This document shows, piece after piece, positions 10,583 to 14,651 of a stretch of 64,000 bases of DNA (position 1 is the stretch's first letter; the number at the start of each line of letters is the position of its first letter). The notes under the pieces were generated by a model, which was not told the origin of the DNA, did not search any database, and worked only from the letters and a program-made list of their open reading frames with translations. Origin of the DNA: Candidatus Thermochlorobacter aerophilus (GTDB lineage Bacteria > Bacteroidota > Chlorobiia > Chlorobiales > Thermochlorobacteraceae); contig PHFL01000039.1 of the NCBI GenBank assembly GCA_002794105.1, positions 1 to 64,000 of the forward strand. Reading direction: 5' to 3'. The position numbers and the translations under genes are program-made.

Positions 10583-13129
10583 TCAACTTAGGGCTTCACG
10601 CACCAATGCGGCTTGCTCTTGCTCGTGTTTTTTGATATACCCCGTGGCTGGGCTTGCTGAAGCAGGACGACCCACATATCGTAGCGTCTGTCCGGGCAAG
10701 AGCTGTTCAGAAAGCAAGGGCATAATGAACGACCATGCGCCCATATTCTTTGGCTCTTCTTGCACCCAGAAAACTTCCTTGGCAGAGCGATATTTTTCAA
10801 GCAGATGTGCAATGCGCTTTTCTGGATAAGGATAAAGCTGTTCTACTCGCAAAATGACAATGTCTGGCTTGACCATGCGGCGTCGCTCTTGCAAAAGGTC
10901 GTAGTAGACTTTGCCCGAACAGAACAAAATGCGACGAGGCGATTCAATCTCATCGACTTCATCGAGCACATTTCTAAACTTGCCTTCAAGCAATTCGGTA
11001 ACGGGTGATACAGCAAGCGGATGGCGCAGCAAGCTCTTCGGTGTCATCACTATCAACGGCTTGATGTTGCCAGCATAGACCTGACGACGCAGCAAGTGGA
11101 AATACTGCGCAGGTGTGGTGCAATTTACCACTTGCATATTCACTTCTGCACAAAGCTGCAAAAAGCGCTCCAGTCGTGCCGAGGAGTGCTCCGGTCCTTG
11201 ACCTTCGTAGCCGTGTGGCAATAGCAAGACCAAGCCTGAAGGCTGTCCCCACTTCGATTCTGTGCTGGAAATGAACTGGTCAATGATAATTTGAGCACCG
11301 TTGGCAAAGTCGCCAAATTGGGCTTCCCAGATGGTTAAAGTCAGTGGGTCGGCAACACTGTAGCCGAACTCGAAGCCCATGGCGGCAAATTCTGAAAGCA
11401 AGCTATCATTGACATAAAATGGAGCTTGATGCGGTGAAATATGTTTGAGAGGCGTGTATTCTTCGCCCGTCTCTGTGTCGAAGAGCGAAAGATGCCGCTG
11501 GCTAAAGGTGCCGCGCGTACTGTCTTGTCCGCTAAGACGCACAGGGTAGCCTTCAAGCAAAAGGGTGCCGAATGCCAAAGCCTCTGCAAATGCCCAGTCG
11601 AGCATGGTTTGTAGAGCATGTTCGCCTAAGAGTTGTGCGCGTTTAGCAAACTGTTGCTCCAGTTTTTTATTCAGGTTAAAGCCTTTAGGCAAATTCAGCA
11701 TAGCGCGCACTACGGTTTGCAACTGCTCGAGCGTTGTGTGCGTCGCTGGAGATTTGCCGCGGTAGCGAGCAACAATTTCTCTGGGGTCAACTGCCAGTGG
11801 CAAATCGGCTCGGGCTTCGGTTTTCCGCTCATGCTCTTGTGCCATGGCTTTGGCTTTTTCTGAAGCCTGGTCAAGAGTGCGGCGGAAGTCTTCCATCATG
11901 GCGCGGGCATCTTCAGGCGTTAAGATGCCTTCGCGGATGAGTTGCTGTTCGTATAGCTCACGCACAGAGGGATGTTCGCGGATACGCCGATATAGTACAG
12001 GTTGCGTGTAGCCCGGGTCGTCGCCTTCGTTGTGTCCATGGCGGCGGTAGCAGAGCATGTCAATGACCACATCGCTATTGAACGTCATGCGGTAGTCGAG
12101 AGCAAGCTTTGCAACAATCAAGCAAGCTTCTGGGTCGTCGCCATTGACATGAAAAATTGGGGCTTGCACCATCTTTGCCACATCTGTAGCGTAGAGCGTA
12201 GAGCGTGCATCGTTTGGCGTGGTTGTAAATCCAATTTGATTGTTGATAATGAGGTGAATGGTGCCGCCTGTAGTATAGCCTTCCAGTTGAGAAAGATTAA
12301 GCGTTTCAGTTACAACGCCTTGACCAGCAAATGCAGCATCGCCATGGATAAGAAGCGGAATGACACGATTGCGCTTGGTATCGTTCATGCGGTCTTGCTT
12401 GGCGCGCACGATTCCTTCGACAACAGGATTGACCGCCTCAAGATGACTGGGATTAGAGGCAACCGATATTTTGATTTCCTTACCATCGTAACCAATTCGA
12501 GTACCAGTGGCACCTAAGTGGTATTTTACATCGCCGGAGCCTTGTGTGAGGTAATCGGCTTTCATAGGTAGCGGCTTGCCTTCAAACTCCACAAAGAGCG
12601 TCTCGTATGGCTTACCTACAATGTTGGTCAGAACATTGAGGCGACCGCGATGCGCCATACCAATTACAACCTCTTTGACATCATAGCGCGTAGCCTCTTT
12701 GATGAGAAAATCAATAATTGCAATGGCAGATTCACCGCCCTCAATTGAGAAGCGCTTGTGCCCCAGATATTTGGTGTGCAAATATCGTTCAAACCCTTCG
12801 GCGCGAACCAAATTTTGATAGATAGCCAGCTTATCCTCTTTTGAAAATTGAAGTTGTTCAGAGCGATTTTCAATATGGCGTTGAATCCAGCGTTTTTGTT
12901 CGAGCGACTGGATGTTCATATACTCCACGCCTATTTTTTCACAATAGGCTTTGCGGACCTTCTCTAAAATCTCACGCAGCGTCATCGCAGGTTTATCACC
13001 AAAGTTGGTCGTGATAAACACTCGGTCAAGGTCCCAAATGGTAAGGTCGTAAAAGTCAGGTTCGAGTTCGGGATGGTAGTGTGGCTTATACTCCAGCGGA
13101 TTGATGTTGGCAATCAGGTGTCCGCGCAC
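10583..13129 (-). CDS. kgd: Kgd-like 2-oxoglutarate dehydrogenase, E1 part (3' piece of a frame-split gene)
   Basis: Thiamine-diphosphate-dependent E1 component that decarboxylates 2-oxoglutarate in the oxidative TCA cycle. It shows 'YDLTIWDLDRVF', 'KRFSIEGGESAI', 'VVIGMAHRGRLNVL', 'SGDVKYHLGATG', the ThDP/Mg region from 'HGDAAFAGQG' to 'INNQIGFTTTP', and the transketolase-like C-terminal half ('GQDSTRGTFSQRHLSLFD'). The frame opens with GTG in 'RGHLIANINPLEY', but in Kgd/SucA proteins this sequence directly follows 'VMQLINSYR', which ends the overlapping upstream frame. The pair is thus one gene broken by one base near 13137. Combined length would be about 1255 aa, the size of mycobacterial Kgd. 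Confidence 0.93.
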   Translation of the reverse strand: MRGHLIANINPLEYKPHYHPELEPDFYDLTIWDLDRVFITTNFGDKPAMTLREILEKVRKAYCEKIGVEYMNIQSLEQKRWIQRHIENRSEQLQFSKEDKLAIYQNLVRAEGFERYLHTKYLGHKRFSIEGGESAIAIIDFLIKEATRYDVKEVVIGMAHRGRLNVLTNIVGKPYETLFVEFEGKPLPMKADYLTQGSGDVKYHLGATGTRIGYDGKEIKISVASNPSHLEAVNPVVEGIVRAKQDRMNDTKRNRVIPLLIHGDAAFAGQGVVTETLNLSQLEGYTTGGTIHLIINNQIGFTTTPNDARSTLYATDVAKMVQAPIFHVNGDDPEACLIVAKLALDYRMTFNSDVVIDMLCYRRHGHNEGDDPGYTQPVLYRRIREHPSVRELYEQQLIREGILTPEDARAMMEDFRRTLDQASEKAKAMAQEHERKTEARADLPLAVDPREIVARYRGKSPATHTTLEQLQTVVRAMLNLPKGFNLNKKLEQQFAKRAQLLGEHALQTMLDWAFAEALAFGTLLLEGYPVRLSGQDSTRGTFSQRHLSLFDTETGEEYTPLKHISPHQAPFYVNDSLLSEFAAMGFEFGYSVADPLTLTIWEAQFGDFANGAQIIIDQFISSTESKWGQPSGLVLLLPHGYEGQGPEHSSARLERFLQLCAEVNMQVVNCTTPAQYFHLLRRQVYAGNIKPLIVMTPKSLLRHPLAVSPVTELLEGKFRNVLDEVDEIESPRRILFCSGKVYYDLLQERRRMVKPDIVILRVEQLYPYPEKRIAHLLEKYRSAKEVFWVQEEPKNMGAWSFIMPLLSEQLLPGQTLRYVGRPASASPATGYIKKHEQEQAALVREALS

Positions 13130-14351
13130 GCGGTAGGGAGTTAATCAATTGCATTACGCGAGCTTGCTTGCGCACAGCTTCTTCAGTGCCAAGGCTATCA
13201 ATCAAACCAAGTCGTGATTTGTCAATACAATGCCGAAATGGGCGATGCGGCGCCGACATTGCCGCAAAGATTTCGTCGTAGAAGTTGTCTTCTCCCAAAA
13301 GCAAGTGATGGATGTAAGCCAGAAGCTCACCTGACTCAGCACCTTGAATAATGCGATGGTCGTAAGTGCTGGTCAGGGTCATAACTTTGCTGATGCCCAG
13401 CTGTGAAAGCGTCTGTGGCGACATGCCATGATACTCTGCAGGATAGTCAATAGCACCAGCGGCGATGATGACACTTTGACCTTGCATCAGGCGAGGCACA
13501 CTCATCACTGTGCCAATGGTGCCCGGATTCGTCAGCGAAACTGTTGTACCTTGAAAGTCGGCGGGTTCAAGTTGGTTTTTGCGTGCCCTTTCTATCAGTC
13601 GGTTGTAGGCATCAAAAAATTGTGAAAAGTTCATCAACTCTGCACGCTTGATATTGGGCACCACCAGCGAGCGTGAGCCATCTTTGCGAGTAAGGTCAAT
13701 TGCAATGCCAAGATTGATATGAGCGCGCTCAATGCGCTGTGCCTTCCCTGAAACTACCGCATATGTAGCGTTGAGCGAAGGATACTTTTTGAAGGCTTTG
13801 ACAATAGCCCAAGCAATCAAATGGGTGAAAGCGGCTTTGCCGCGCCCAATCAGTTGCAGGTGCTGGTTCAAAATCAAACGGTTTTCTTCAAGCGCCTTAA
13901 CGGGAATCGTGCGCACCGAGGTAGCAGTCGGTACACCGAGCGAAAGTTCCATGTTTTGCGCAATCAGTGCCGACACTCCAGAGAGGGGTTTGGCGCGGTC
14001 ATCAATGTCCAAATTGAGCTCAGCCAGCGAAGTGTAGCTCGGTGAGGCGACTTTGGGTGAAGGTGCTGCAATAGGTGTTGAGCCCAACGACGAGTTGCTG
14101 TAGTGAGTTCCGTTCGTGCTTGTCTCAAGGTGCGAACCGTTATGTGAAGTATGAGTTTCTAAAGCATTGAGGTCTAGCGACCCGGATTCAAGCGCTTGGA
14201 AAAAGTTGCGCCAATCATTGCGAAGAAGTGAAGGGTCTTTAAGGTACTGGGTATAGAGTTCATGGACAAATGTCGTGTTAGGTCCGAAAATCTCAACGAG
14301 TTTTTCTTTTAGAGAATCTGGTATGTCAGCAGTTGCCATAGCTAAATTCAA
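13086..14351 (-). CDS. kgd: Kgd-like 2-oxoglutarate dehydrogenase, N-terminal and E2-like part (5' piece of a frame-split gene)
   Basis: Holds the N-terminal segment of 2-oxoglutarate dehydrogenase ('FVHELYTQYLKDPSLLRNDW'), a Ser/Thr-rich linker of about 80 residues, and a dihydrolipoamide-succinyltransferase-like catalytic domain. The latter has 'SLTNPGTIGTVMSVPRLM' and the active-site signature 'TYDHRIIQGAESGE'. There is no lipoyl domain, as in actinobacterial Kgd. The final 15 residues ('LPRARTPDCQHQSAGV') have left the family frame; homology continues in the overlapping frame that starts at 13129. Two tRNA-Leu genes lie upstream on the same strand. Either a damaged gene, an assembly error, or recoding. 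Confidence 0.9.
   Translation of the reverse strand: MNLAMATADIPDSLKEKLVEIFGPNTTFVHELYTQYLKDPSLLRNDWRNFFQALESGSLDLNALETHTSHNGSHLETSTNGTHYSNSSLGSTPIAAPSPKVASPSYTSLAELNLDIDDRAKPLSGVSALIAQNMELSLGVPTATSVRTIPVKALEENRLILNQHLQLIGRGKAAFTHLIAWAIVKAFKKYPSLNATYAVVSGKAQRIERAHINLGIAIDLTRKDGSRSLVVPNIKRAELMNFSQFFDAYNRLIERARKNQLEPADFQGTTVSLTNPGTIGTVMSVPRLMQGQSVIIAAGAIDYPAEYHGMSPQTLSQLGISKVMTLTSTYDHRIIQGAESGELLAYIHHLLLGEDNFYDEIFAAMSAPHRPFRHCIDKSRLGLIDSLGTEEAVRKQARVMQLINSLPRARTPDCQHQSAGV
13136..13138 (-). other. Single-base frame break inside kgd
   Basis: On the minus strand the sequence reads AAC TCC C TAC CGC GTG CGC. Removing one C of the CCC run restores N-S-Y-R-V-R-G-H-L, the expected continuous Kgd sequence. 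The shift is therefore one extra base in a three-C run. No classical +1 slippery codon with a stop or a rare codon is present at this point, which favours mutation or consensus error over programmed frameshifting. Confidence 0.75.
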
Positions 14352-14452: not shown

Positions 14453-14467
14453 GGAGAGAAGCAGATG

Positions 14468-14554
14468 TGCCGAAGGCGAGAGTCGAACTCGCACGAAGTT
14501 TTTAACTTCGCCAGATTTTGAGTCTGGTGCGTCTGCCAATTCCGCCACTTCGGC
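14468..14554 (-). tRNA. tRNA-Leu (CAA)
   Basis: 87-nt class II tRNA with a long variable arm. The acceptor stem is GCCGAAG/CTTCGGC and the anticodon stem CCAGA/TCTGG, with loop CTCAAAA giving anticodon CAA for UUG codons. The variable arm CGAAGTT..AACTTCG and the T loop TTCGACT are present. Discriminator A; CCA not encoded. It lies 15 bp downstream of a second tRNA-Leu on the same strand. Confidence 0.95.
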
Positions 14555-14569
14555 AAAGACGAGAATCAG

Positions 14570-14651
14570 TGCGAGAGGAGGGACTTGAACCCACACGCCT
14601 TGCGGCACTGGCTTCTAAGACCAGCGCGTCTGCCAGTTCCGCCACTCTCGC
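14570..14651 (-). tRNA. tRNA-Leu (TAG)
   Basis: 82-nt class II tRNA. The acceptor stem is GCGAGAG/CTCTCGC and the anticodon stem CTGGT/GCCAG, with loop CTTAGAA giving anticodon UAG for CUN codons. A variable arm TGCCGC-AA-GGCG and T loop TTCAAGT are visible. Discriminator A; CCA not encoded. Forms a tandem leucine pair with tRNA-Leu(CAA). Confidence 0.95.

Follow-up and report, generated by a model that had tools for sequence, protein, structure and literature searches.

A one-base frame break in the Kgd/OdhA-type gene of Candidatus Thermochlorobacter aerophilus is very probably a consensus error or a very recent insertion

Actinobacterial OdhA obtains its lipoyl groups in trans from the E2 of pyruvate dehydrogenase (PMC10415282). 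The Kgd/OdhA enzymes (NF008907, PRK12270; PDB 8p5r, 8p5t and 2xt6) are the closest described counterparts of a locus, kgd, that we analyzed in a window of 64,000 nucleotides from Candidatus Thermochlorobacter aerophilus (contig PHFL01000039.1), an organism of the same order as the green sulfur bacteria. Like them, the locus shows the order PF16078, PF00198, E1_dh, Transket_pyr and C-terminal domain, covers the family profile fully across its two pieces, has no lipoyl domain of its own and carries the DHRIIQGAESG motif; unlike them, its frame is split by one extra base and its host is not actinobacterial. Unfused SucA E1 (PDB 2jgd; locus L012 of a Chlorobiaceae-like relative) shares the E1 domains at about 50% identity but its gene encodes no E2-like domain, and L012 has a lipoylated E2 as its neighbour. 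By homology with the fused enzymes, the E1 domain of the intact form would decarboxylate 2-oxoglutarate and the E2-like domain would pass the succinyl group to CoA, with lipoyl groups supplied in trans by a second, lipoylated E2 encoded elsewhere on the contig. Only two PF00198 loci were found in the source genome, and the one that is not kgd carries a lipoyl domain and lies on the same contig; the fused enzyme would presumably depend on such a separate lipoylated E2, as does actinobacterial OdhA.

The gene, an E2-like domain followed by E1, lies on the minus strand and is read as two open frames overlapping by about 50 bases (Table 1). Its start is likely ATG 14339 rather than TTG 14351. The upstream frame reads ...RVMQLINS and then LPRARTPDCQHQSAGV up to the stop TAA 13088-13086, and the E1 frame (13144-10583) reads ...YRVRGHLIANINPLEY, homology starting at Tyr 13135. 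Pfam assigns PF16078, the E1 N-terminal segment, and PF00198, the E2-like acyltransferase domain, to the upstream piece, and Pfam and NCBIfam searches of both pieces agree that on the DNA the E2 acyltransferase domain precedes the E1o domains. Against PRK12270/NF008907 (multifunctional oxoglutarate decarboxylase/dehydrogenase) the E2-like half matched profile positions 7-408 and the E1 half positions 412-1239 of 1241. As both halves match a single family, we are dealing with one broken gene and not with two chance frames, which bears out the initial annotation in reading the frames as the E2-like and E1 halves of one Kgd-type protein; as sequenced, no continuous polypeptide is encoded and the frame breaks at the CCC run. 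The source genome (hereafter G000; 80 contigs, 3.43 Mb, estimated 99% complete with 12% contamination) holds kgd in single copy, with no second intact copy. The tRNA-Leu pair upstream of kgd occupies the same place in the congeners G001 and G002, and was not found in the stretch of the outgroup G003.

Table 1. Coordinates of the features discussed (positions in the window, or genome and contig where these are given; the names of the last three genes come from reading their sequences)
Feature	Position	Strand	Remarks
Upstream piece of kgd	13086..14339	-	ATG 14339 to TAA 13088-13086; PF16078, PF00198, then 16 out-of-frame codons past the break
Downstream piece, E1 core	10583..13144	-	E1_dh, Transket_pyr, OxoGdeHyase_C; frame open from 13144 to the stop
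CCC run with extra base	13136..13138	-	Relatives have one base fewer here (DNA alignment)
GTG, first possible start of the E1 frame	13127..13129	-	No Shine-Dalgarno-like sequence at usable spacing
Internal ATG (MTLREIL)	12983..12985	-	GGTGAT 9 bases upstream; about 50 E1 residues lost
Two tRNA-Leu genes (CAA, UAG)	14467..14651	-	Upstream of kgd
Nucleotide-cyclase-like gene	G000:C15:121105-122566		One more T in a long T run
Small lipoprotein-like gene	G000:C47:216978-217569		One more G in a GG pair near 217354
Beta-propeller-like gene	G000:C1:9134-10554		Clear frame break

At the junction the minus strand reads AAC TCC C TAC CGC GTG, the CCC run being one base too long. When the gene was aligned at the DNA level with those of ten relatives, only G000 had the extra base and no other length change was seen nearby, and all ten relatives read N-[S/A]-Y-R-V-R-G-H in frame (INS or INA, then YRVRGH). 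A single extra C between VMQLINS and YRVRGHLIAN, as initially annotated, is hence what the alignment shows, and the indel and consensus-error causes proposed for it fit a base that is private to G000. Among 91 loci examined, the junction was in frame in 46 of the 46 fused ones (E2-like domain directly before E1; several phyla; one locus counted twice, L011 and L031 being apparently the same record), so that no splitting at this junction was seen in other lineages.

We then compared the frequency of such breaks between genomes, using 201 orthologous genes of G000 and G001 (76,178 aligned residues in 768 kb of stretches). Seven G000 genes were flagged automatically, and four were clear breaks on inspection (4 of 201): kgd and three others, of one or two bases each, in conserved genes (Table 1). 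Of the three discounted cases, one overlaps the tRNA-Leu genes, which lie on the other strand, and in the remaining two (contigs C18 and C5) the aligned frame is probably non-coding. The rate in G000, about 5 breaks per 100,000 codons, gives a gene as long as kgd (about 1,256 codons) a chance of around 7% of being broken and predicts about one break per 64 kb; thus the kgd break is not exceptional. At 4 of 201 broken genes, against roughly 1-3 of 199 in G001, the assembly cannot be described as error-ridden on the strength of this rate. Over the roughly 72 kb set against G002, G000 showed no clear break other than that in kgd.

The close relatives, which the initial annotation had proposed to compare, keep the gene intact except for G002, where a different break was found in an error-rich genome. 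This second break lies about 50 codons downstream of the G000 site, in the opposite direction, with TGA over ATG (ATGA). Frame breaks affected about 11 of the 73 G002 genes set against G000 and 13 of the 66 set against G001. We considered a recurrent split with ATGA overlap and rejected it, as an error rate of this size in G002 predicts such a break and explains it best. More generally, with about 15% of compared genes frame-broken, G002 (G002:C6, L131-L136) is unfit for inferring pseudogenes.

Selection on the gene was examined through private amino-acid changes, counted wherever the outgroup G003 and the two remaining congeners share the same residue. In G000 there are 14 such changes in 393 columns of the E2 half and 8 in 801 columns of the E1 half; the corresponding counts are 22 and 26 in G001 and 8 and 13 in G002, the E1 count of the latter covering only the part downstream of its own break. 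Within the genus dN/dS of kgd is 0.04-0.09, with dS near saturation. Neither half of the G000 gene showed relaxed selection or decay, nor was a second lesion found in it. Hence, unless the broken form is functional, the extra base either does not exist in the organism or arose very recently.

The frame break is not a conserved feature; very probably it reflects either an error in the consensus or an insertion that is private to G000 and very recent. As to the one-base indel itself, we lean towards a sequencing or consensus error: the gene would be an ordinary single fused 2-oxoglutarate dehydrogenase gene whose C run was lengthened by one base in this assembly, which would break the frame. The other form of this reading, rather unlikely though clearly worth retaining, is a real insertion that recently inactivated the gene in the sampled population and is tolerated since KorAB or other routes would oxidize 2-oxoglutarate. 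An intact KorAB-type 2-oxoacid:ferredoxin oxidoreductase pair is indeed present on contig C15 of G000 (TIGR03710, 670 bits; TIGR02177, 270 bits), a young mutation would not be expected to show decay, and the genome-wide break rate of G000 is not far above that of G001; against this, kgd is under strong constraint and the other family members examined all keep it, mostly intact. This alternative overlaps the best explanation, which leaves error and fresh mutation together. The KorAB-type pair is a plausible, putative second route from 2-oxoglutarate to succinyl-CoA, so that loss of Kgd alone would not cut the cycle, and the initial statement that it would cut the oxidative TCA cycle goes too far.

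It is very improbable that the insertion is real and fixed, with the enzyme made either as two chains, translation also initiating inside the gene near ATG 12985, or as a fusion produced when the ribosome slips by +1 at TCC CTA; were it so, the locus would offer a natural test of whether the two-in-one enzyme works as two chains. A functional split, in which the E2-like and E1 pieces are made separately and then assemble, is possible but unlikely, and we would give it very little weight. Each piece keeps its catalytic domains, and an N-terminally truncated mycobacterial Kgd E1 (delta-360, 2xta), reportedly a working E1, has been crystallised; but the start of that construct lies some 16 residues before the break, which falls inside a predicted continuous helix, the first of the E1 core, and not in a linker. 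The helix spans residues 80-104 of the L031 segment with the junction at 96/97 (pLDDT about 65-74), in a structure model that is poor overall (pLDDT 54) and was used for this helix only. Neither possible start of the E1 frame is satisfactory: GTG 13129 is not preceded by a ribosome-binding site, and a start at ATG 12985, with its GGTGAT upstream, would cost about 50 conserved E1 residues. Nor does any relative show a split here. Programmed +1 frameshifting is known in prfB, and recoding of this kind, yielding a short E2-like protein and a fusion, had also been suggested initially. The minus strand at 13140-13129 (C TCC CTA CCG CG) does offer the site TCC CTA, at which slippage by +1 would bring back the fusion and yield the ancestral protein, and kgd resembles prfB in its two overlapping frames and the +1 direction. 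Unlike prfB, it lacks a conserved site, a Shine-Dalgarno stimulator upstream and a stop codon at the slip point, and the shift is shared by none of the 10 close relatives and none of the 46 fused loci. Folding was no better than in shuffled sequences (111 bases round the site, pseudoknot-free: -14.6 against -16.9 kcal/mol, z +0.73) and no Shine-Dalgarno-like element was found just upstream of the slip site. With the shift in no relative and no stimulatory element found, recoding is scarcely credible. The slip motif matched once more in G000 and once in G033 within the order, taken as chance, and the 30 of 49 tRNA loci read for a frameshift suppressor did not include tRNA-Ser(GGA) or tRNA-Pro(GGG).

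As a feature, the frame break matters little. Automatic annotation would nevertheless list this central enzyme as broken, and 2-oxoglutarate dehydrogenase could be left out by mistake from a metabolic model built on this genome.

The fused form was found in the two congeners, in members of the same family and in three representatives of the order from other families, and fused E2-like/E1 enzymes are common outside Actinobacteria. Chlorobiaceae-like relatives (L012 and the other f4 loci) have an E1 that is not fused and shares about 50% identity with that of G000, and many others have no E1 at all, giving a patchy distribution inside one order.
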